64,000 nucleotides of DNA from Microbacterium sp. SY138 (lineage in GTDB: Bacteria > Actinomycetota > Actinomycetes > Actinomycetales > Microbacteriaceae), in assembly GCF_039729145.1 (NCBI RefSeq), contig NZ_CP155793.1, positions 868,001-932,000 on the forward strand. The letters run 5' to 3'. Below are positions 24,921 through 34,825 of the stretch, one piece after another (the first letter of the stretch is position 1; each line of letters starts with the position of its first letter). Under the pieces are notes generated by a model. That model had not been told where the DNA came from, ran no database searches, and worked only from the letters and a program-made list of their open reading frames with translations. The position numbers were made by a program, and so were the translations under genes.

Positions 24921-24994
24921 GGCAGGGTAGCTCAGCTGGTTAGAGCGCACGACTCATAATCGTGAGGTCGCGGGTTCAAGCCCCGCTCCTGCTA
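24921..24994 (+). tRNA. tRNA-Met (CAT), elongator-type, integration target
   Basis: The D-arm is TAGCTCAGCTGGTTAGAGC. The anticodon stem-loop is CACGACTCATAATCGTG with anticodon CAT, and the T-arm is GCGGGTTCAAGCCCCGC. The acceptor is GGCAGGG / TCCTGCT with G:U pairs at positions 1:72 and 7:66, and CCA is not encoded. The 3' half (24952 onward) is duplicated at 34779-34825, so this gene is the attachment site of the mobile element and its 3' end is now contributed by the element copy. The tRNA remains whole. Confidence 0.95.
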
Positions 24995-24998
24995 CAGA
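24952..24998 (+). repeat. attL: 47-bp direct repeat at the left end of the element
   Basis: This covers the anticodon loop to just past the 3' end of tRNA-Met and is identical to 34779-34825 over all 47 bases. The bases beside it differ on both sides. Integration into the 3' half of a tRNA gene is typical of AICE integrases. Confidence 0.95.
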
Positions 24999-25003
24999 TC
25001 AAG

Positions 25004-25023
25004 ACCCTCGGATTTCCGGGGGT
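25004..25023 (+). terminator. Element-borne terminator replacing that of tRNA-Met
   Basis: Arms ACCCTCGG (25004-25011) and CCGGGGGT (25016-25023) pair with one U:G around an ATTT loop and are followed by TTTG. The original chromosomal terminator now lies beyond attR at 34830-34849, so the element brings its own replacement. Confidence 0.75.
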
Positions 25024-25068
25024 TTTGTCGTATCCGGGGCGATGGCTGGCGCAGCGCAGGGGAGGGCT

Positions 25069-25087
25069 GTGCCGGTTTTGTGCCGGT
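25069..25087 (+). repeat. Left paired repeats, probable integrase arm-type sites
   Basis: Two copies of GTGCCGGT (25069-25076 and 25080-25087) start 11 bp apart, one helical turn, 70 bp inside attL. The same pair with the same spacing and orientation occurs at 34654-34672 near attR. Conserved pairs near both ends suggest binding sites for the integrase N-terminal domain or the excisionase. Confidence 0.65.
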
Positions 25088-25166
25088 AGCAGTCGCGATG
25101 AGGGGTGCAACCCCGTCCGAATCTAGGGATGCAGCTCGTTCCGCCCACCGAGAGAAAACCCTCATC

Positions 25167-25202
25167 ATCGGCGTTACCGATTGAATATCACACAACGCCG
25201 AT
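25167..25202. promoter_or_regulatory. Inverted repeat upstream of the leftmost cargo ORF
   Basis: Perfect 9-bp arms ATCGGCGTT (25167-25175) and AACGCCGAT (25194-25202) are separated by 18 AT-rich bases, 45 bases before the ORF start at 25248. The GCCGATA core recurs as an inverted repeat at 26477-26514, so both may bind one element-encoded regulator. The rest of the 25024-25247 gap shows only the arm repeats. Confidence 0.4.
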
Positions 25203-25247
25203 AGGCTACGAGTGCCCAGCGAGGAAGCTGGTAGGAGCGGGGTCGAT

Positions 25248-26114
25248 ATGTCGTCAGCAGTACAACAGTTACTACCCGAACACAACAGCTCATGCGAGCG
25301 AGCGCGGTTATCCGCCTGCAACTGCTTCTGTCACGGCGCTGGTCATCAACTTGACCTCATCAAGCGGGCAGTGACTTGCGCCTCCACTGGTGAAAACAAC
25401 ATCGGCCAGCTCCTCGCTGATCTTGAAGGTGTGTACGGCGGGTTTCATTCCAGTCTGCGTGACGGAGTCCCTGAAGCTCGACGAAAAGTTCCAGAAGATC
25501 TTGCACAGCTCGACCTCAATCGCGGTCGCGGCGCAACATGGGTAGAGACGCTGATTCTCGATGAGGCACTTCACGCTGCGTTTGTCGGTGTGGCTCGGGC
25601 TAGCGTCTCGCTAAGCAACTCTGAGCGGGAGAGTCGGAAGGCGTTCGTGATTCGGCTATACGAAGGCGCACTCCCTATCGTGGGTGGAGATGTGGAAACA
25701 CACAATATCTGCGATGGACATCTCTGGTGCAGCGTGCTTGCAGAAGCGAACGACCCCCGTGCGCAGACTGCTACGCCGAGCGGGAACCAAGCCCCTCCTC
25801 ATGGTCGAATCGCGTACCCTCGTAGCCGTCAAGCGCGTATTCCACTGCGATTGGCCGCGGTGAGATCACGCGGTCTGGCCCATGTTAGGTCAGCGGTCGG
25901 TTCGAGTACACCGGTTCCGGGTGCGAGTGAGATCGTTCACCTGCTGGGCGCAGCCACTTGCCCCGACCTTTGGCATCACCCCGCTGCCGTGCGTCATTCA
26001 TTGCTCTCCTTCGTTGCGGCATCTACCTGGGCGCCCGCGGGCACAACGACCCTCGCATCTCGGTCTCAACTTGGCGTTCTTGAAGAACGGTGGGAGAAGC
26101 GTGGAAACTGGTGA
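25248..26114 (+). CDS. Hypothetical protein, probably frameshifted
   Basis: A 288-residue ORF from ATG 25248, with a GGAG site 12 bases upstream; a GTG at 25212 would add 12 residues. An N-terminal Cys/His cluster ACNCFCHGAGH (residues 24-34) may bind metal, and residues 40-150 look like a normal globular protein. From about residue 170 the composition becomes Arg/Ser/Pro-rich and less protein-like. Meanwhile the +1 frame carries a convincing stretch (25690-25863) ending HCDWPR and a stop. The simplest reading is a frameshift, making this a decayed gene of about 200 codons. I do not recognise a family. It is element cargo. Confidence 0.45.
   Translation: MSSAVQQLLPEHNSSCERARLSACNCFCHGAGHQLDLIKRAVTCASTGENNIGQLLADLEGVYGGFHSSLRDGVPEARRKVPEDLAQLDLNRGRGATWVETLILDEALHAAFVGVARASVSLSNSERESRKAFVIRLYEGALPIVGGDVETHNICDGHLWCSVLAEANDPRAQTATPSGNQAPPHGRIAYPRSRQARIPLRLAAVRSRGLAHVRSAVGSSTPVPGASEIVHLLGAATCPDLWHHPAAVRHSLLSFVAASTWAPAGTTTLASRSQLGVLEERWEKRGNW
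25690..25863 (+). CDS. Alternative-frame segment: likely true C-terminus of the preceding ORF, or a separate small gene
   Basis: 57 codons from ATG 25690 in the +1 frame relative to the ORF at 25248. The composition is protein-like, with mixed hydrophobic, Lys/Arg and Cys residues (AGTKPLLMVESRTLVAVKR), and third positions are richer in G/C than in the overlapping frame. It either continues the 25248 gene after a one-base indel or is an independent 57-residue protein with GGTGGAG before its ATG. The two cannot be separated without homologues. Confidence 0.3.
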   Translation: MWKHTISAMDISGAACLQKRTTPVRRLLRRAGTKPLLMVESRTLVAVKRVFHCDWPR

Positions 26115-26187
26115 ACTTGGCTCGGAGAGGCGCAGGGGACGGCTGCTCCGCTAGTAGTAGGTGAGGAAGCTGCGCAGACGGACGAAT

Positions 26188-26424
26188 CTACGGGCTGTCA
26201 GCGGCGTGGACGTCGGGGCAGTCCGCGAGACAGCATCCGCAGATCGGGTGTTCGTGCGTCCCCATGTCGGCCTCGTTCGGGCACTCGCAGTCCGGGCATG
26301 CGCAGCGAGTGCCCAGCGCTGGATGTCCGAGTTTGGCGCGCTCGGCATCAGTGAGGTCGGCGCTGACCACCACGAGGTGCGTCTCGCCGTCGAGCGTGAC
26401 GTAGGTAGCTTCTTGATTTGGCAT
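26188..26424 (-). CDS. Small Cys-rich protein (possible zinc-binding), unknown
   Basis: 78 residues. The C-terminal half has eight or nine Cys in two clusters, CACPDCEC (about residues 41-48) and HPICGCCLADC (59-69), with His residues around them. This fits a zinc-ribbon or other metal site. The N-terminal 35 residues (YVTLDGETHLVVVSADLTD) look like a small beta domain. It is the last gene on the minus strand of the element, downstream of the GIY-YIG gene, from which a 129-base gap with an inverted repeat separates it. The function is unknown. Confidence 0.6.
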   Translation of the reverse strand: MPNQEATYVTLDGETHLVVVSADLTDAERAKLGHPALGTRCACPDCECPNEADMGTHEHPICGCCLADCPDVHAADSP

Positions 26425-26476
26425 AACGGATCAGGATACGCGATGTCGTCGCGGTGCAGAGGGAGAAAGCTGTTTT

Positions 26477-26514
26477 TGCCGATAGCTCCCGATAGTTCGC
26501 TTCATTTATCGGCA
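26477..26514. promoter_or_regulatory. Inverted repeat between two minus-strand cargo genes
   Basis: TGCCGATA (26477-26484) and TATCGGCA (26507-26514) are perfect 8-bp arms in an AT-rich gap, upstream of the Cys-rich gene. It shares the GCCGATA core with the repeat at 25167-25202. An operator is more likely than a terminator because no T tract follows on the minus strand. Confidence 0.4.
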
Positions 26515-26553
26515 ACTATATGGACCGTCAGTCCTCGTACGGCGGCGAAGTCG

Positions 26554-27258
26554 TCAGGCCCAGGCTCCTCGATACGCGATCGGAAGCTCATCGTTTAGGG
26601 ACTTGAGTATCTCGCGGAACGGCGGCAGCGAGACACTATCGCTCCAGAACTCGGTTGCTCCCGCCCACTGCGCGATCCAGAGAGGCGGCTCTGCGCGGGC
26701 TGCATCGACCCGGACGAGACATTCGCTTTCGAGCAGCCGCGCAAGGGTCCGGTTCTTCACTCGGACCGTGTCAAGGACGATGCCGCCAGCTTGCGCCAGT
26801 GCTTGGGGGCGGCTTGTCGATGCTTTCGAGATGCCGACCTTGTACAGTCCCGGCTCCTCAAAATGTATGAGGTAGACGACGCACTCCTGGTTATCCTCGA
26901 CCTCGAAGTCCAACATGTCCCACGCATGCCGAAGGTACATCTTGATCTGTCGCGATTGATCTTCCGAGGAAGGCTTCGTGAGTTGACCCGTCCGGCGAAA
27001 GGCAACGGACAGATCGTCGTATCGAGGATCGGGGCGACGCCACGCCGCGAGCCAACTCCTTGCCTGGAGCCTTGTGGGATGTCCCGACCACCAACCTTCT
27101 CCGGGCGTGCGTGCGGCGTCGGGGAGGGCGCACCCGAGGATGGCTTCGATCTCGACGAAGCTCAGCAAGACCTCCTCCGCTTCCTCGTGGGTACGCAGGT
27201 AGTCGTACAGCGGCGCGTATGGCCCCATCTGCACCTCGTGGTGATCTCGCAGCGCCAT
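26554..27258 (-). CDS. DUF7662-like plus GIY-YIG (T5orf172-type) protein
   Basis: 234 residues (ATG 27258; a GTG at 27261 adds one). Residues 8-75 (YAPLYDYLRT, FVEIEAILGCALP, WLAAWRR) resemble the small DUF7662 domain thought to bind nucleic acid. Residues 125-210 resemble a T5orf172/GIY-YIG nuclease core: VVYLIHFEEPGLYKVGIS corresponds to the paired GIY...YIG strands, followed by a basic residue (SRPQAL) and Glu in LLESECLVR. Its start overlaps the integrase stop, so it is translated from the integrase message. A nuclease coupled to an integrase suggests a role in maintenance, excision or host/phage interaction. This is inference; the activity is untested. Confidence 0.6.
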   Translation of the reverse strand: MALRDHHEVQMGPYAPLYDYLRTHEEAEEVLLSFVEIEAILGCALPDAARTPGEGWWSGHPTRLQARSWLAAWRRPDPRYDDLSVAFRRTGQLTKPSSEDQSRQIKMYLRHAWDMLDFEVEDNQECVVYLIHFEEPGLYKVGISKASTSRPQALAQAGGIVLDTVRVKNRTLARLLESECLVRVDAARAEPPLWIAQWAGATEFWSDSVSLPPFREILKSLNDELPIAYRGAWA

Positions 27259-28382
27259 CACTCTGTTCCCATCAGTTTGTCGAGCGCGCCGTTCGCGCGG
27301 ACCGCTGCATCAGATCTTGCCCGGCTGTATCGCTCCGTGACCTGCATCGAGGAATGCCCGAGGATCGCCTGGACGTCGTTCGCAGCAGCGCCAGCATCGA
27401 AGAGCAGGGTCGCGAGTGTGTGGCGAAGGTCATGGATGCGCAGATCAGGGCGATCGAGTCGATTCCTCAGCTCGTCCCAGTCGACGGCCCGGCGAACATT
27501 CGATGTGTTGAGCCGGCCGCCGTTCGGGCCTGTGAACACCAGCTCGTTCCGTCCGAGACCTGCAACCCTGCGAACGATGATCGAGCGCAGAGCGGAGGGC
27601 AGCGGCACAGTACGTTCCTTGTGACTCTTTGGCGATTGTTCGCGCACTCTGCCACCGCCAGCAGGCGAGAAGCTACGCCGGACATGGATAACACCGTGCG
27701 CCAGATCGACGTCGCCCACCCTCAACGCGCTTGCCTCGCCGGCACGCATGCCCGTGTACACCAAGGCCGCCAGATAGTCGCGGTGAGGCCCCTCATCGAC
27801 AGAGTCGAGCATCGTTGCAACCTCGGACAGCGTCAGTGCCCGTGAACGAAAGCTGGACGGGCGTTCGCCTCGTGGACGCCTCGCCAACCGCACCGGATTC
27901 ACTCCGATGATCTCTGCACGCGCAGCGCCCTCGAGTAGCCGACTGAGCACAGCCAGGGCGTCATTGCGGGTGGACGCCGATCCGCTCCATCCCGTTATCG
28001 CGTCGTCCACATCACTCACCCCGATGGACTCGATCTTTCGATGGCCAAGCCACGGCTGCACTCGGAGTCGCCACCCACGTTCGTACGCCGCGGTCGTCGC
28101 GGGGCGTAGTCCTTCTGTAAGCGACGGCCAATGCCGAACCTGCCAAGCATTCAGCGTCATCCCACCGTCGGGGCGCACCTGCGAACGCATCTCGCTACGG
28201 ATCTTCTTCGCTTCGCCGAGCGTGTCCACGAGGTAGCTCCGCTCTCGGTCTTCTCCGTTGAGGCCGGTAGCCCACACGCGGACCTGATACTTGTTGCGGT
28301 CCGCACGATAGCGAATGCCCTCGGGCAGCGGCTTGCGGGTCTTGGGATCGATCCGCGCGCTACTGGAGGCCACGAGTGCCAC
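27258..28382 (-). CDS. int: Tyrosine-type site-specific integrase
   Basis: 374 residues from GTG 28382. An AP2-like arm-binding N-terminus (residues 20-70: GIRYRADRNKYQVRVW) and a SAM-like core-binding domain (75-165) precede the C-terminal catalytic domain. The catalytic set is complete: Arg in YTGMRAGEASALR, Lys in KSHKERTVPL, HDLRHTLATLLF (His and Arg), LGHSSMQVTERYSR (His, and the nucleophile Tyr). It should insert the circular element at the tRNA-Met 3' end and excise it with the excisionase. The gene overlaps the excisionase by 23 bases and the GIY-YIG gene by at least one base. Confidence 0.96.
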   Translation of the reverse strand: MALVASSSARIDPKTRKPLPEGIRYRADRNKYQVRVWATGLNGEDRERSYLVDTLGEAKKIRSEMRSQVRPDGGMTLNAWQVRHWPSLTEGLRPATTAAYERGWRLRVQPWLGHRKIESIGVSDVDDAITGWSGSASTRNDALAVLSRLLEGAARAEIIGVNPVRLARRPRGERPSSFRSRALTLSEVATMLDSVDEGPHRDYLAALVYTGMRAGEASALRVGDVDLAHGVIHVRRSFSPAGGGRVREQSPKSHKERTVPLPSALRSIIVRRVAGLGRNELVFTGPNGGRLNTSNVRRAVDWDELRNRLDRPDLRIHDLRHTLATLLFDAGAAANDVQAILGHSSMQVTERYSRARSDAAVRANGALDKLMGTE

Positions 28383-28596
28383 CCGCGTCGAGGAAGGTTT
28401 CGATTGTTGACAGCCTCCACAGCATGTGCTTGCCCATGTGCGCGTCAGGAAACGGGACCCGTGCCTGTCGTCGCAACGAATCGAACGTCGAGAGAGGCAC
28501 GCGGCAGCGGGCAGCCACCTCCCGGCGAGTCAGGTACTTGTCCTCGACGGCCTCTGACTCAGCAGTGTTTTCGACCAGCTCAAGTTGTTTACGCAT
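28360..28596 (-). CDS. xis: Excisionase / MerR-like helix-turn-helix protein
   Basis: 78 residues starting at ATG 28596 behind GAGGAAAG. The central HTH_17-type segment is YLTRREVAARCRVPLSTFDSL (residues 21-41), followed by a wing (HMGKHMLWRLSTIETFLDAGG), the layout of AICE and phage excisionases. It overlaps the Rep stop by 8 bases (ATGCGTAA) and the integrase start by 23 bases. It should bend the attachment-site DNA and direct the integrase toward excision. Confidence 0.88.
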   Translation of the reverse strand: MRKQLELVENTAESEAVEDKYLTRREVAARCRVPLSTFDSLRRQARVPFPDAHMGKHMLWRLSTIETFLDAGGTRGLQ

Positions 28597-29950
28597 CACT
28601 CTTTCCTCTCTGAGATTCGAACCGCACCCGTCGTGCGTCTCGCCATTCACGTGCGGCGCGGGCGGCTTCGATCGCGAGAGCCCGGTCACCCTCATTCCGC
28701 CAGCCCATTCCCGCAAAGCTCCATGAGCCCACTACCAGCACCTCGTCGACGTCGTAGCCTTCCTCTTTGGCTCGTTCCACGGTGCGTGCCAAGCGCCAAG
28801 CGCGACGGGCTCCTCGGAGCGAGCCAAGTGTCACCGAGTACCGGCGCGACTTCGAGGAGAAGTGTCCACGGAAGCCCAGCATGTGCGACCACTTCCTGAG
28901 CAGCGCGTAGGGGCCCTCCGGACCGTTCTCCTCGGCAATCAGCTCAGCGGTGGCCTTGATCACTTTCACGTGCGGGCGGTCACGGCTCCCGCTACTGAGA
29001 TCCTCCGTCGCCTTGGTGGCGTACTTTGCGATGTATGCCGCTACGGCTCGGTCAGAGAGCGTGCCGTCGAGCCCCTCACGACGAACGATCGGTTGAACAT
29101 CGATCTGCGCACCCCACCGGAGAACCCGAGCGGATGCCTCTCCACGCACCGCCGGAGCCTCATACACGACTCGACGCGACGACTTCCGAACCGCAGCGAT
29201 GAGACATGCTTCGGTCACTTGGTCCGGGGCAGGCGGGAACTGTTCTGTCGGGCTAACGCCGTCGAGCCGAATGATCGCGTGAAAGTGCACCGCTCCGCGT
29301 CGCTGAAACTCCGCCACTTTGGCGAACTGGACCCGTACGATCTCCGCAGCGGCTCTCTGAGTCATCCCGAGCTCGTAAGCCAGCTGCCGCCGGAGCTGAA
29401 TGGTGAACCGCCTCCACAGCTCGGGTGCAAAGTACTGCCACACGACGTGGCCAACGTAGTCATAGCATTCCTCGCACAGCGGCTCGCCGAGGAGTCCGTC
29501 GTCGTCATCGTGATTGCAGAAGCACCCGCGCGGCTTGCCATGAACGCAGGTGCCACGTCTCCGCGAACCAGCCAGAGAGTGGACGGCACCGAAAGACGGA
29601 GCGGTGAGTGTGACGAACGCCATCGGGTGTTCGCCTACCCCTTCGGGAACCCCTTTCATCCCACCCGCAGCGCCAGCCATGATCATGTGCCACGTATCGC
29701 CCTTGTACTCGTGGCTGCAGGATTCGCAGCGACGGGCGCGACGGTTTCCGCATCTCGTGTATGAGATGCGGTCAGGTTGCGTCTCCGCCACGAACTCACG
29801 GATCACCTCACCGGTCTGCGGATTCATCGTGGCCGACGAGCCGGTGAGTCGAACCGGGTTGGAGCAGAATCCAACGCGTGCCGCGCCCGCCATCCATTGA
29901 TCGAACTCGGAGCTTCGCAACCGCGCGGCTACGGCCTCAGCGATACTCAA
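28589..29950 (-). CDS. RepSA-like rolling-circle replication initiator
   Basis: 453 residues from TTG 29950, 5 bases after GGAGGT. The same frame is open to 29971 but without a better site. The N-terminus has a Cys-rich zinc-like part (TRCGNRRARRCESCSHEY). HUH-endonuclease landmarks follow: MAFVTLTAPSFG, the HFH metal motif in GAVHFHAIIRLDG (about residue 235), and YIAKYATKATED with the candidate nicking Tyr. The C-terminus has the RepSA segment MLGFRGHFSSKSRRYS. It should nick the element origin and start rolling-circle replication of the excised circle. It overlaps the preceding small gene by 14 bases. Confidence 0.9.
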   Translation of the reverse strand: MSIAEAVAARLRSSEFDQWMAGAARVGFCSNPVRLTGSSATMNPQTGEVIREFVAETQPDRISYTRCGNRRARRCESCSHEYKGDTWHMIMAGAAGGMKGVPEGVGEHPMAFVTLTAPSFGAVHSLAGSRRRGTCVHGKPRGCFCNHDDDDGLLGEPLCEECYDYVGHVVWQYFAPELWRRFTIQLRRQLAYELGMTQRAAAEIVRVQFAKVAEFQRRGAVHFHAIIRLDGVSPTEQFPPAPDQVTEACLIAAVRKSSRRVVYEAPAVRGEASARVLRWGAQIDVQPIVRREGLDGTLSDRAVAAYIAKYATKATEDLSSGSRDRPHVKVIKATAELIAEENGPEGPYALLRKWSHMLGFRGHFSSKSRRYSVTLGSLRGARRAWRLARTVERAKEEGYDVDEVLVVGSWSFAGMGWRNEGDRALAIEAARAAREWRDARRVRFESQRGKSDA

Positions 29951-30311
29951 CGTCGACCTCCGTGGGCACAACGCACGAGAGTGGAGTGCGCGTCAGCGGG
30001 TCGATAGACAGCGGGCGACAGACTCTGTCATCGAGCCCATCGGATTGCTGCTGGTCCTGCCAGGCGATGATCTGCGCATCAGAGCACGCAGGATTCGCGA
30101 TGCGTACGTCGACCGAATCCTCATCGGCAACGGCCGGAACCTCACCCTGCGGGAACCACAGATTGCAGGGGGAGGGCTGCCTGTCTGGTGTATCCGATGA
30201 AGCGGTCGTGGATGCCGTTCCGAGTGTGTAACCGGCAGCGGCACCTAGACCGAGCAGGAGCGCTGCTCCCATAATCGACGCGCCGAGAACGGCGACTGTT
30301 CTCTTGTTCAT
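29937..30311 (-). CDS. Small membrane-anchored or secreted protein (Spd-position), unknown
   Basis: 124 residues from ATG 30311 with AGGAGAAG before it. Residues 5-30 form one hydrophobic helix (VAVLGASIMGAALLLGLGAA), a signal anchor or signal peptide. The rest is polar and acidic with four Cys that could form disulfides. In pSAM2-like elements small membrane proteins between tra and rep are often spread (Spd) proteins that help the element pass along mycelium. By position this may be a counterpart, but no sequence match is claimed. It overlaps the end of the traB frame (ATGA). Confidence 0.7.
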   Translation of the reverse strand: MNKRTVAVLGASIMGAALLLGLGAAAGYTLGTASTTASSDTPDRQPSPCNLWFPQGEVPAVADEDSVDVRIANPACSDAQIIAWQDQQQSDGLDDRVCRPLSIDPLTRTPLSCVVPTEVDVEYR

Positions 30312-31711
30312 GATTCTTCTCCTGATCTGTTCGTTGCATTCGACCGTGATGCTCGCGGACGCCGTGCCCCTGGAGCAGCTACCTGCTCGACGACCTCGAC
30401 AGGGCGTGGACGCGGGGTGGCAAACGTCTCAGCTGCTTCCCTGATCTGCGCGTCAGTCGCGAAGGCTGCCCGCACACGCACCGGAGGCCCTGTTTCGGGA
30501 AGCACGTACGCGACTCAAGGCGTAGACGGCGAGATCTCGTGACACATCGCACCCGCTGCAACTGCCCCGTCGCCAAGAACCATGGCCGTCTCGGTGCGGT
30601 CACGGAGCCTGAGCCCTACGGTCTGTGTGAACAGGCCCCGCGCCGGGAGCGTCTCCTTGCGGGGATCCTGCAAGCACGCGAAGACGATGAATCCCACCGC
30701 CCGTCCTTGGGATGCGAGCGTCGCGATTGCGGCATTCGCGCGGCGGAGCATGTCTCGATCGGTTTCGTACGATGTCAACGCTGCAAGCTCATCGATCAGC
30801 ACGATCACGGTCGGGCTGTCGACCGAGGCGACGTGCTGCCTGGTCACCCCTGCAAGCTGGCGCGCTCGTATCTGCATCTGCGCGACAGCGTCTTCCAAGA
30901 GCGCTACGGAATGCGCTGCATCGTCTGCGAACCGCGTGAGCAGACGGCGGCCCATCGCAAGCTCCATGCCACCCTTGCGGTCGATGCCCCAAACTTCGAT
31001 GAGGCCGGAGTGGATGGGCTGCGCCAGTCCCAGTAGAAGGCCCCACACGAGCGAGGCTTTACCGCTGCCGGATGACCCCGCGACCAACGTGTGTGGGCCG
31101 AGCGGGAGCCGCCAATCGTGACCACCTTCCGACACGCCCATCAGAACTGATCTGCCGTCCCAGTTGCTGCCGAGCTGAAGCGCGAACGAACGTGCCAGCA
31201 CGTCGACGTAGTCGATCCGCAACGCGAGCGCCCCGATCTGCTGGCCTTCTACGGCAACTCGAACGGCGTTGAAGGCCTCAGCGATGCGCCCTGTCGCCGC
31301 GACAAGATCCTCCCGCGCCAGTCCCGGAGGCATCGCAACGGGAAGGAGGCACGTCCATCCATCCCATTGCGGCTGCCCCGCGCCGGACACGAGGGGATTC
31401 CCCGCGATGTCCTTGACCTCTAGCCGGAGGTTGCGGGCCAGGGCAGGCCATGACGCCAAGATCCGTGCGCCCATCTGCTCTTGCCACCGCCGGTGCAACA
31501 CGGTGTCCAGATCACGCGCTGCAAGAAGGCGGCGCAACACGACCACTGCGAACGCGCCCACCACCAGCCAGTTGACGAGCTGGCCGACGAATGGCACCGC
31601 GCTGAAGAGCCCGAGGACTATGAGCATTGGGACTAGCCACCATCCGCGACGCCACAGGCGCGGCAACTCACCAGCCCAGTACGCGCGTTCGATCCGCCAT
31701 GACCAGTCCAT
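30308..31711 (-). pseudogene. TraB-like FtsK/SpoIIIE DNA translocase, interrupted by in-frame TGA
   Basis: Two N-terminal transmembrane helices (residues 22-65) precede a P-loop motor with Walker A VAGSSGSGKASL (about residues 209-220; Ala instead of Ser/Thr after Lys) and Walker B TVIVLIDELAAL. The open frame stops at codon 399 (TGA, 30515-30517) right after ISPSTP. Beyond it the same frame continues for 69 codons with the expected tail (VAYVLPETGPPVRVRAAF). A Gly codon GGA changed to TGA explains this. The first 398 residues (30515-31711) keep the motor core but lose the C-terminal part, where TraB proteins usually bind their clt sequence. Conjugal transfer is probably impaired. Sequencing error is the alternative. 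Confidence 0.8.
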
Positions 31712-32109
31712 CAGTCGTTGCTCCTCGGCTTGCCTGCGGGCTTCATTTCGCGAGCGCGGAGTGAGAACGCAACGCGCGGACGCCCACCGTTCTCCTTGAC
31801 ATACGGAGTGACTGAAAGACCGTCGAAAAAGACCGGGCGGAAGGGGAGCCCGTTGGCCTCCGGCGGTGCCGCAGGTTCCGCGATGCTCGCGATCTTGACT
31901 GTGACCTCGTTCTGTCCCTTGCGGGCCTCAGGGTCTGCGTCGATCACGCGCACCTGCCAGAGCGGGTGCCCGGTGTTCTTGTCCAGATCCTGTCCCTGCC
32001 GTTCTCCGTCATCGGACCACTTCGCGACGGGCTCGACCTCGCCGACCATGAACGCTCCACGAGGGAAGTACGCCTCGAAGCTGACCGGGATTCCTGACTG
32101 CAGTGCCAT
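31711..32109 (-). CDS. Pra-like activator of replication, integration and excision
   Basis: 132 residues. The sequence pattern (IPVSFEAYFPRGAFMVGEVE, LDKNTGHPLWQVRVIDADP, VTVKIAS, FDGLSVTPYV) matches the small protein at the head of actinobacterial AICE operons annotated as plasmid replication, integration and excision activator (Pra in pSAM2, SCO3933-like). An AAAGGA site precedes the ATG. Its stop overlaps the translocase start by one base (TGATG). It is the first gene of the minus-strand operon, with a promoter expected in 32110-32267, which is AT-rich and holds short TACGG repeats. Confidence 0.85.
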   Translation of the reverse strand: MALQSGIPVSFEAYFPRGAFMVGEVEPVAKWSDDGERQGQDLDKNTGHPLWQVRVIDADPEARKGQNEVTVKIASIAEPAAPPEANGLPFRPVFFDGLSVTPYVKENGGRPRVAFSLRAREMKPAGKPRSND

Positions 32110-32267
32110 TGCTCATTCCTTTCAGTTGGTGATGCTTTATCTCTGTACGGAAGACTGCACGTCAGTACGGGTTTTAGTCAATGTTCGGTTTTTGTCTTTT
32201 TCTAGTCATGTACTCCTTACGGCAACGGGTTGCTCTCGGATAGGCTGTCGAGCATGGAGGTTGTGCG

Positions 32268-32876
32268 ATGAGTGAACTGTCCGCGCTACCCGTGTGGGGC
32301 GTCGTGCCGCTACCGGTCGCCGCCGTTCTTCAGCGACTGAAAACCAAGGCGGCAGATGCTGTCAACGCCATGGACGCGGCGCAGGTCACTAGCGGCACGC
32401 CGCAGAACCACGACGAAGCGTTCTTGAAGATGTCCGCAGCGGCTGAGGCGGCGGATCGGGCGACTCGCGACTACCGGAGTGTGTTCAATGCCTACGCTCA
32501 CAGGTTCCACAAGCCGAAGCCGCCCATTGGCGAACTTGCCGCTATGCAGGGCACCATCACTCAGTCGTTCGCTTCTCGCTACACGGCGAAGACGGTCGGC
32601 GCGATCGAGGCTCTTCTTTCACCGGCCCCGGACCTTGATGCCATCCGGCTTGGCATCCGCGCGCTTGGGTTCAACGACCTTCGGGGCATCTCGCCCGAGC
32701 TGGACCGTCAACTTGCTCTGGCGGAAGCCGACGCCAAGTTTGTCCCGTGGAAGCCGGTGCCAGACGCATTCGGGCGCTACTCCGTAGTTGGCAGTGCGGC
32801 TGATCAGTCTCTCGGTGATCTCAGCTTCGACCTGACACGCAAGGTCTCGTCTCCCGAGGCGGTAGCGGAGCTGTGA
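32268..32876 (+). CDS. Hypothetical protein, element cargo
   Basis: 202 residues, ATG preceded by a perfect GGAGGT with 6-base spacing, so translation is well supported. It is divergent from the Pra operon. No family is recognised. It looks soluble and mostly helical (residues 18-65 Ala-rich, possible coiled coil), with a conserved-looking middle (HRFHKPKPPIGELAAMQGTI) and no signal peptide or membrane segment. The next gene is a P-loop ATPase after 152 bases that include a large inverted repeat, so joint function is possible but not shown. Confidence 0.65.
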   Translation: MSELSALPVWGVVPLPVAAVLQRLKTKAADAVNAMDAAQVTSGTPQNHDEAFLKMSAAAEAADRATRDYRSVFNAYAHRFHKPKPPIGELAAMQGTITQSFASRYTAKTVGAIEALLSPAPDLDAIRLGIRALGFNDLRGISPELDRQLALAEADAKFVPWKPVPDAFGRYSVVGSAADQSLGDLSFDLTRKVSSPEAVAEL

Positions 32877-32900
32877 GAACTTTCTTTATTCGTTCAAGGC

Positions 32901-32987
32901 CGGCCTTCGGCCGACGTTAGGTGCCGCTGCGGTGCGTCCGGTCCTCGCTCCGCTCCGGTCCGGGCGCTCCTCGCACCACCTAACGTC
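32901..32987. repeat. Compound inverted repeat between the two right-end cargo genes
   Basis: Perfect 11-bp arms GACGTTAGGTG (32913-32923) and CACCTAACGTC (32977-32987) enclose a GC-rich core with two CCGGTCC repeats and several GCTCC units. A smaller hairpin CGGCC-TTC-GGCCG (32901-32913) sits at the left edge. It may be a terminator for the 202-residue gene, a replication origin or a transfer site (clt). It is the most structured non-coding DNA in the element. Confidence 0.5.
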
Positions 32988-33028
32988 ATCAGCGGCGAAC
33001 TGACCCCACCGTTCGCTAGTCTCATCTC

Positions 33029-34627
33029 ATGCCGACGCTTACTGCGATCAACGCAGCTCTGAACAAGATCCCTAAGCGTGCGGAGTCGCGCGCCGAAGCA
33101 GAACTTCGATCAACGTTCGAGGACTCCGGCGTTGGGCTCGCGCTCGACACCGTTGATCACCAGATCATCTACGGCCGACGAGGCACGGGGAAGACCCACG
33201 CGCTGCGCTATCTATCCTCGATTCGCGGCGACGTGGAGAACATCACTATCTACGTCGACCTCAGGACTATCGGCTCGGCTGAGGGAATCTTCGACGGCGA
33301 GAATGTAGGCCCGGTCGAGAGGACTGCGCGCCTGCTCGTGGACCTTCTGAATCTCATCCACGATGAAATCTTGCAGGCAGCGCTCGACGATGAGGGCCTC
33401 GTGACCAACACGTCGTTTGTCTCTGCACTCGACTCGCTTCTTGAATCCATCAGCGCGATTCGTGTCACCGGAACAGTTGCTCGAACCACTCGCAACAGCA
33501 GCCGTTCGCAACGCAGCTCCAGCGTGGGGGCGAGCATATCTAGCAACGGACAGATCGCGGCGCACTTTGAGGCAGGTGACGAAGAAGCTAAGGAGACGGA
33601 TCGAGAGGAAACTCGGCAAGGCGAAGAGAAGATCTCTCTCAACTTCAGCGACGTCGCCCGGGCGCTTCGGTCACTAGCGGAAACACTCTCCGCGAAGCGA
33701 ATCTGGGTGCTGCTCGATGAGTGGACGAGTGTGCCGCCCGAAGTCCAGCCGTACCTCGGGGCATTCCTAGTGCGTTGTCTGCTGCCGCTTCAGCCGTTTA
33801 CGGTGAAGATCGCGACGATCGAGCAACAGGCTGTGTTTAGACGCCAGCTCGGGAACGGCTCCTTCGTCGGGATTGAGGTCGGTGCAGATATGTCAGCCAA
33901 TCTCAACCTCGATGACTTCATGGTGTTTGAACAGGAAGAAGAACGAGCACGTGCATTCTTCCTCAGTCTGTTTTTCAAGCATCTGACCGCAAGCAGCAAA
34001 GAAGAGCAGGGAGAACTCCGGCTGACTCGTGAGTCCGAACTGATTTCGCTTGGGTTCACAGACACGCGCGCGTTTGACGAGCTCGTCCGAGCGGCAGAAG
34101 GCGTGCCGCGAGACGCGATTAACATCGCCGCGAACGCCGCCTGGCGTGCTGGCGATAGGAAAATCTCCATTCCAGACGTTCGGCGAGCTGCCCGCCAGTG
34201 GTTCCAGAACGACAAGGAACGTGCCATTGCTGACGTGCCCGAGGCACAGGCCCTCCTGAACTGGGTGATTGATCGAGTCATTCGTGGCAAGAAGGCTCGA
34301 GGTTTCTTGGTCAATCAGAAGGACAAGGGCGCGCGGGCGCTTGTGGCGCTTTTCGACGCACGCGTCCTTCACTTGGTCCGGCGGGGCTATTCGGCGCAAG
34401 ACGCCCCAGGAGAGCGGTACGACGTGTATGTCATCGATTATGGTGCTTATGTTGACCTCATCAACACCCAGAATGCGCCTGCTGGCATGCTCCCGATGGA
34501 GGAAGCCGACGGCAGCGATGGACACGTCGAAGTTCCAACGCAGGACCTCCGAGCTCTGCGACGCGCGGTTCTAGACTTCGACGAGTTCGGGAAAGAAAGT
34601 CTCGACGAGCCGAACGAAGAACACTGA
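33029..34627 (+). CDS. ORC/CDC6-like P-loop ATPase, element cargo
   Basis: 532 residues. Walker A is YGRRGTGKTHALRYL (about residues 49-63), and Walker B is RIWVLLDEWTSVP (about 227-239), preceded by an acidic/Ser-rich linker (160-205). The order and spacing resemble AAA+ ATPases of the ORC/CDC6 group. The C-terminal third (VPRDAINIAANAAWRAG and a winged-helix-like region near residues 390-460) could bind DNA. No nuclease or membrane domain is visible. It is the largest cargo gene and is next to attR. Related uncharacterised ATPases occur in bacterial accessory regions, some suspected in phage defence; its job here is unknown. Confidence 0.75.
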   Translation: MPTLTAINAALNKIPKRAESRAEAELRSTFEDSGVGLALDTVDHQIIYGRRGTGKTHALRYLSSIRGDVENITIYVDLRTIGSAEGIFDGENVGPVERTARLLVDLLNLIHDEILQAALDDEGLVTNTSFVSALDSLLESISAIRVTGTVARTTRNSSRSQRSSSVGASISSNGQIAAHFEAGDEEAKETDREETRQGEEKISLNFSDVARALRSLAETLSAKRIWVLLDEWTSVPPEVQPYLGAFLVRCLLPLQPFTVKIATIEQQAVFRRQLGNGSFVGIEVGADMSANLNLDDFMVFEQEEERARAFFLSLFFKHLTASSKEEQGELRLTRESELISLGFTDTRAFDELVRAAEGVPRDAINIAANAAWRAGDRKISIPDVRRAARQWFQNDKERAIADVPEAQALLNWVIDRVIRGKKARGFLVNQKDKGARALVALFDARVLHLVRRGYSAQDAPGERYDVYVIDYGAYVDLINTQNAPAGMLPMEEADGSDGHVEVPTQDLRALRRAVLDFDEFGKESLDEPNEEH

Positions 34628-34653
34628 AGCGCCTCATCGGTAGCGCCGCTTCA

Positions 34654-34672
34654 GTGCCGGTTCCGTGCCGGT
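34654..34672 (+). repeat. Right paired repeats, probable integrase arm-type sites
   Basis: GTGCCGGT occurs twice (34654-34661, 34665-34672), 11 bp apart in the same orientation as the left pair at 25069-25087, 106 bp inside attR. The 34628-34778 gap holds nothing else recognisable apart from a small pair of CGCGG-GAATC-like repeats near 34722-34748. Confidence 0.65.
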
Positions 34673-34778
34673 ACCTCCGCTGAAACCACCCTCGACCAGC
34701 AACGACCAACCATGACATCTTCCGCGGAATCACGCGGGAATCCGCGAGTAACGAGCATCAGCTGTCCCGCCGCATCTA

Positions 34779-34825
34779 ACTCATAATCGTGAGGTCGCGG
34801 GTTCAAGCCCCGCTCCTGCTACAGA
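34779..34825 (+). repeat. attR: 47-bp direct repeat at the right end of the element
   Basis: An exact copy of 24952-24998, beginning in the anticodon loop. It lacks the 5' half of the tRNA, so it is not a gene. It is the original chromosomal 3' end of tRNA-Met, displaced by integration. Confidence 0.95.

Follow-up and report, generated by a model that had tools for sequence, protein, structure and literature searches.

We analyzed a 64,000-nucleotide stretch of Microbacterium sp. SY138 (Microbacteriaceae; contig NZ_CP155793.1, positions 868,001 to 932,000 of the forward strand), hereafter the window, and the evidence supports an element of the actinomycete integrative and conjugative element (AICE) type integrated in tRNA-Met at positions 24952–34825 of the window. 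Taken together, the results are probably best explained by an AICE-type element with a slot for exchangeable genes at its right end, a hairpin-containing replication origin at the edge of that slot, and small islands in related genomes that are satellites of such elements.

The interval is bounded by two direct repeats that are identical across 47 bp, as an earlier note on this DNA had stated: the attL core at 24952–24998 and the attR core at 34779–34825 (both plus strand), spaced by 9,827 bp. The left copy starts in the anticodon loop of a tRNA-Met (CAT; 24921–24995, plus strand; ARAGORN, Rfam tRNA 68 bits) and ends 3 bases past it. Since the left repeat thus comprises the 3′ part of an intact tRNA plus 3 bases, the tRNA was rebuilt and not broken. 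A pair of tRNA 3′-part repeats 9.8 kb apart is no chance product. The G+C content per kilobase is 0.58–0.66 inside the interval and 0.65–0.71 in the five kilobases on each side.

Relatives of the strain showed that the interval is not fixed in the chromosome; a fixed region in distant relatives is what the earlier note had named as speaking against its claim. Both flanks join at a single tRNA-Met within one contig in two genomes (G127 and G040; G and L numbers are our labels for genomes and loci), leaving the site empty, and the site is nearly empty in G088, where the flanks join at tRNA-Met but the right flank is set off from the tRNA by about 350 additional bases. Together with the repeats and the tRNA, these sites establish direct-repeat integration at a tRNA 3′ end. 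In strain Leaf320 (G242), the backbone (window positions 26203–32973) showed 94.8% DNA identity to that of the window, as against 79% over 988 bp for the chromosomal left flank.

The backbone genes between the repeats are of AICE type and lie on the minus strand. A tyrosine recombinase is encoded near one att site at 27258–28382 (Phage_integrase, E = 6.9e-26); cargo lies in the approximately 2.3 kb that separate it from attL. Kin of this integrase were detected in 21 of the 295 genus genomes, counting that of the window (E ≤ 1e-60), many of them adjoining RepSA and TraB. The replication initiator is RepSA (28589–29971; PF20199, E = 1.5e-145), with a score of 386.8 bits against the NCBIfam RepSA model, under its equivalog cut-off of 700. 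Between the two lies a 78-aa helix-turn-helix protein (28360–28596), for which a sub-threshold HTH_17 match (E = 0.006) and PHROG matches to DNA-binding (1e-8) and excisionase (2.7e-5) families weakly support a Xis-like identity. A TraB-like FtsK/SpoIIIE protein (30515–31711; FtsK_SpoIIIE, E = 5.2e-10) is truncated by an in-frame stop at 30515–30517, after which 68 further codons follow in the same frame, to 30308. In strain MF109 (M. maritypicum) and in Leaf320 the frame is uninterrupted through to the later stop; the stop in the window strain is either a recent loss or a sequencing error. Because of this truncation the window copy may not transfer by itself, and the earlier wording of a full Pra-TraB-Rep-Xis-Int backbone was too strong. 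Int, the Xis-like protein, RepSA and the FtsK/TraB-like protein were recovered, and the 132-aa protein at 31711–32109 owes the name Pra to its position and to the earlier note, since it had no match to a Pfam or NCBIfam model at E 0.1. At 9.8 kb, the element is the smallest of the nine AICEs with Int, Rep and TraB that we delimited (9.8–18.5 kb).

The right end of the element is an exchange slot. It opens with a cis element at 32870–32990 (plus strand), made up of a conserved box (32870–32899), hairpin 1 (32898–32912) and a variable stem (32914–32923 / 32977–32986) that frames a conserved core; it closes with the attR arm (34654–34778, plus strand; arm-type site at 34654–34672), which was detected in 35 of the 295 genus genomes, counting that of the window. 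In MF109, the flanks match those in the window at 99.7% on the left (1,824 bp) and 99.4% on the right (2,175 bp), which makes M. maritypicum the probable species of the window strain. The backbone plus left cargo match at 99.8% (13 mismatches over 7,898 bp), whereas from just past the box up to the att core the sequences differ except for the conserved hairpin core, with the attR arm at 81.6% identity and the flank beyond it again at 99.4%. The MF109 slot holds a SocA_Panacea antitoxin-like gene (PF13274) and a 195-aa neighbor without a Pfam match. In Leaf320, which differs from the window in its cargo at both ends, the right slot encodes a C5 DNA methylase (PF00145), a 307-aa protein that fits no family and a further protein matching ParB_N below threshold. 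The slot of the window encodes a 532-aa P-loop ATPase (33029–34627, plus strand) with an ORC-CDC6-like start (Pfam, 3.3e-9). The right cargo is therefore unrelated among the three kin, and two of the three cargos look, by family matches, like restriction-modification or toxin-antitoxin genes. The earlier phrase of unknown cargo at both ends was fair, but the right end is a slot that holds other genes in relatives.

The same module was also found on different elements. Identity between an island in tRNA-Met (G022) and an AICE with a Phe-type att core (G088, whose attL was not found in the stretch examined) reaches 96.6% over a 3,052-bp tract that runs from the box as far as the attR arm; upstream of the box, no identity between the two is visible. 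G114 and one island of G250 have 2,087 bp in common (82%), starting at the core, and the inner island of G117 and the right end of the G037 element 2,631 bp (91%). The box/hairpin is thus a repeated break point, seen for window and MF109, window and Leaf320, G022 and G088, and G114 and G250; it is not a universal one, because the stretch common to G117 and G037 starts after the hairpin. We conclude that related elements exchange this module, box through attR arm, as one unit. The strongest rival concerns how this happens: ordinary homologous recombination at the box/core and at att, with Rep uninvolved, would produce such swaps too, and we give it only slightly less than an even chance. The cis element is about 73–90% alike in most carriers, enough for occasional crossing over, and a tandem array exists in G117. 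The G022/G088 break speaks against it, though not decisively: since it falls at the box and identity upstream is lacking, only the box of about 30 bp would be left for pairing.

The right end of the element recurs without its backbone. A search of the 295 genus genomes with the right arm (E ≤ 1e-24) gave 36 places in 35 genomes: 10 AICEs with adjoining Int, Rep and TraB, 19 small islands, 5 places that could not be delimited (G057, G108, G213, G241, G249), 1 ambiguous place (G210, with Int outside the repeats found) and 1 tandem arrangement. The 19 small islands measure 1.9–7 kb and lie in tRNA-Met (5), in tRNA-Phe (13) or at a Phe-type core for which no tRNA was found (1, G068). In 13 of them the exact repeat begins in the anticodon loop, which is also where it begins in the AICEs, and in 6 it begins later in the tRNA. 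A search with the hairpin element added two further islands (G244, G152), bringing the total to 21. None of the 21 matched Rep (tblastn with the proteins of the window, E ≤ 1e-3), and 19 matched none of Int, Rep and TraB in this search, which unrelated recombinases would escape; the other two contain an int fragment (G071) and a traB N-terminal fragment with a Pra-like gene (G128), the latter having 1,082 bp in common with G088 at 93%. A divergent integrase near the G068 island lies outside it. Thus 19 of the 21 islands combine an AICE att core and right arm with no Int, Rep or TraB of their own, as a satellite would. In addition, the motif GTGCCGGTTTTGTGCCGGT, located in the window at 25069–25087 (plus strand) and by its recurrence near attL a putative integrase arm site, was present near attL in 9 of 10 tRNA-Met entries (5/5 islands, 4/4 AICEs; the tenth, G117, starts with another element), compared with 5 of 9,900 interior control windows. 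We propose that the small islands are most likely satellites, and perhaps parasites, of AICEs.

A rather unlikely alternative is that the islands are dead AICE remnants, formed by internal deletion, in which hairpin and arm were kept by chance or recency. The gene fragments of G071 and G128 would suit such decay, as would the fact that most island genomes show no helper. It accounts poorly for what was retained: of the 19 islands from the arm search, 18 keep at least part of the approximately 120-bp internal element (12 in full, 6 in part) while a backbone of more than 6 kb is gone, and this is the internal part most often kept by islands without Rep. Moreover, 13 of the 21 islands match none of the 11 element proteins of the window, att repeats are exact over at least 40 bp in 17 of 21, and an island and an AICE of different att types share a module at 96.6%.

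In most elements the box of the cis element reads CTGTGAGAACTTTCTTTACTCGTTCAAGG and is followed by a short hairpin and then by the stem-framed core. The box was aligned for 36 of 42 loci, leaving aside four without a box and two cut ones. The letters of the variable stem differ between elements, yet the two strands of the stem are often complementary within each: the summed complementarity of own stems was 371, compared with a maximum of 221 in 20,000 permutations (39 of 42 elements, 3 hairpin loci being skipped; kinship uncorrected), and 24 of 39 elements scored at least 8, compared with 1.3% of cross pairs. Predicted DNA folds had z-scores of −4.0 to −8.1 and beat every shuffle in all four examples tried. 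A double change (C-G to G-C) in the inner stem of the core was found in 2 of the 36 aligned elements and, when the set was widened, in 6 of the 46 that were scored, and hairpin 1 has alternative complementary letters in some relatives. Matches to the element came from 45 of the 295 genus genomes (E ≤ 1e-6, including some short matches). In the family set, at least 6 of 249 genomes, spread over 5 genera and counting that of the window, had it at E ≤ 1e-4, and 3 of 245 genomes from elsewhere in the phylum gave weak matches. An exact-box scan of a species collection returned 22 stretches, all, by title, from Microbacteriaceae, Microbacterium and Curtobacterium among them. No match in plasmid and phage collections covered at least 80% of its length.

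We considered whether the hairpins could instead be a transcription terminator, an RNA gene or the leader of the cargo gene, since they are G+C-rich, intergenic and start at the end of the gene for a 202-aa protein (32268–32876, plus strand; ORF [open reading frame] call, Pfam scan and comparison across elements). This is improbable. The element had no Rfam match at E ≤ 1 (other Rfam matches are sub-threshold or lie across the tRNA or att end) and is retained where the 202-aa gene is not found; the next downstream ORF, in mechanical ORF calls, has the opposite orientation in six islands (G257, G189, G021, G279, one of G250, G152); and the conserved box of about 28 bases lies outside the hairpins. 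We prefer the reading of the hairpin element as a DNA site, most likely a replication origin that would be nicked by RepSA.

RepSA is a rolling-circle initiator, and a conserved box with a hairpin origin is what such an initiator would need; origin-to-origin exchange by rolling-circle initiators is known from plasmids. We envisage the following course. As the protein families suggest, the tyrosine integrase would insert the element at the anticodon loop of tRNA-Met; the excised element would be replicated by the RepSA initiator; and a TraB/FtsK-like pore would move it between cells. The small islands would borrow Int, Rep and TraB of a visiting AICE in trans, and the module of box and hairpin, cargo gene and attR arm would be exchanged as a unit between related elements, an exchange that we see in the form of shared modules. 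In its boldest form, the proposal states that Microbacteriaceae host AICE satellites down to 1.9 kb, whose required AICE parts would be end-located integrase sites and a hairpin origin, and that RepSA strand exchange at hairpin origins swaps defense or toxin-antitoxin modules between AICEs and satellites as cassettes free of an integron integrase; as a whole we regard this form as speculative and unlikely.

Several observations weigh against the proposal of an AICE with an exchange slot, a hairpin origin and satellite islands. Element and islands are known here from their sequences alone. The right arm served as the search query for the islands and so lends them no independent support, and the hairpin element is partial in 6 of the 18 islands that have it and absent from G280. 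The int or traB fragments in 2 of 21 islands are consistent with decay. Outside tRNA-Met, 22 of 23 entries do not have the left arm site of the tRNA-Met elements, and one has it. Kin of the integrase were not found in 18 of 19 island genomes (E ≤ 1e-60; 6 candidates scored per genome), so that helpers would be visitors, and the nineteenth genome, G071, has just the int fragment of the island itself. As for the stem, 15 of 39 elements scored under 8 and the permutation test ignores kinship. The RNAalifold covariation term was close to nil (+0.12), with 1 of 21 pairs changed on both sides; this analysis is uninformative, because alignment fails in the variable stem and the core hardly varies.

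The view that the interval is simply an ordinary, already understood AICE is improbable: gene set and tRNA att site are those of the AICEs surveyed in 2011 (PMC3218068), and defense-like AICE cargo has been published (PMC11706625), but neither the swap of a module at a structured element nor small islands that keep the hairpin was found in the examined parts of the AICE literature.

The remaining genes of the element have few assignments. The left cargo ORF (25212–26114, plus strand) belongs to no family, and its status as a gene is doubtful because its third-position GC is only 0.55. A 78-aa protein (26188–26424, minus strand) has kin in other elements and a 124-aa protein (29937–30311, minus strand) in other AICEs. 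A 235-aa protein (26554–27261, minus strand) matches DUF7662 (E = 2.5e-7); its second half, judged by eye, resembles GIY-YIG. Searches of solved structures with this protein and with RepSA gave no match. For the 532-aa ATPase, the match to the Sll1717 family was below the cut-off, and neither a phage match nor, by sequence, a solved-structure match was obtained. Its kin, at about 43%, are plasmid genes of Burkholderia (22 records) and Acetobacter (1). Three of the 295 genus genomes, counting that of the window, have a match; around the two other copies, the 4-kb loci contained neither the arm nor the hairpin element, so the ATPase is not shown to travel with the right slot; a defense-type role for it would be a guess.

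For the islands, 91 ORFs of at least 85 aa were examined, some of which are surely not genes, with the proteins of the G117 island left out. Among the best 25 of 56 Pfam families were defense-linked ones (AAA_21/AAA_15, GmrSD, AIPR, SIR2_2, HipA, AbiEii and BsuBI/PstI endonuclease) along with one rve_3 (transposase-type) member; Phage_integrase, RepSA and FtsK were not among these 25. The best 25 of 261 PADLOC models included AriA, HEC-01A and PD-Lambda-5. Glycosyltransferase, Lrp-type regulator and thioesterase families were present as well. Family matches may point to a defense role for part of this cargo. The islands L160, L126 and L161 carry genes that we take, by eye, to be DUF3800-like, two of them near the hairpin element.

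Further arrangements were noted in single genomes. At tRNA-Met of G117 (L160), a different AICE-like element and then a small island stand in a tandem array. In G114 (L130), the hairpin element is split into two pieces separated by about 4 kb, and a second arm-like site lies in the gap, which would suit an island lying inside another one. The AICE of G169 (L046 / L037) has one TAG within the integrase frame. In each of G283 (L033) and G111 (L035), the same tRNA-Met holds an element of about 4 kb with Int at 37–41%, Rep at 30% and no TraB match, and the two look like another, smaller element type at this site; as candidate kin, these and the first element of G117 were dropped as other element types on the Int and Rep values. 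A 40-base stretch of a Gluconobacter albidus plasmid (NZ_CP014690.1, 165450–165490) is about 90% like the hairpin core (E = 6e-5).

The islands form a natural deletion series in which most AICE genes are gone and the end arm and hairpin are kept, and they thereby hint at the smallest set of cis signals required. Should the satellite reading be right, AICEs could be added to the helpers of parasites already known among phages and other conjugative elements, and the AICE parasites would carry many defense-like genes.

As an analogy only, integron attC sites are likewise folded, have a variable stem and form the edge of exchangeable cargo. Here, each element has one module, the other boundary is the att core, and no integron integrase was seen, none having been sought.

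With the pSAM2-type AICEs of Streptomyces, the element of the window has in common a tyrosine integrase, a Xis-like protein, RepSA, an FtsK/TraB-like protein and an att site at a tRNA 3′ end; it differs in its Microbacteriaceae host, its truncated TraB and its hairpin exchange slot. The hairpin element is set apart by the Rfam, plasmid and phage searches, comparisons that did not include the pSAM2 origin. According to the part of Choufa 2022 available to us, clt has never been described for pSAM2 (PMC9513070).

Titles in the literature search included none on satellites of AICEs; incomplete relatives of AICEs are on record. The 2024 review of "hitchers" mentions Actinobacteria once, on satellites, and not the term "CIME", in its accessible text (PMC11389934). 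The accessible text of the 2011 survey contains no word beginning with "Microbacteri", and fragments with two or fewer AICE components were excluded (PMC3218068). Its Frankia elements without tra or rep, regarded as remnants or mobilizable elements, are likewise incomplete AICE kin in tRNA genes; they miss one component, whereas most islands here are without all three, and no shared cis element is described for them in that text (PMC3218068). A 2025 paper, in the part at hand, places nuclease genes in AICEs and near defense genes (PMC11706625). Defective AICEs (DAICEs) of Streptomyces also lack part of the AICE functions and might be mobilized by a helper, and the sections available also show a partial integrase with cargo between two repeats; DAICEs are defined by a retained traB, whereas 19 of 21 islands here are without int, rep and traB and the hairpin is nearly always kept (PMC9513070). 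Cis-mobilizable elements (CIMEs), integrative mobilizable elements (IMEs) and hitchers that have just a transfer signal (iOriT; PMC11389934) resemble the islands, as read here, in having end sites, at most a cis signal, and a dependence on another element; in the islands, the helper would be a TraB double-strand-DNA system and the signal a box with hairpins.

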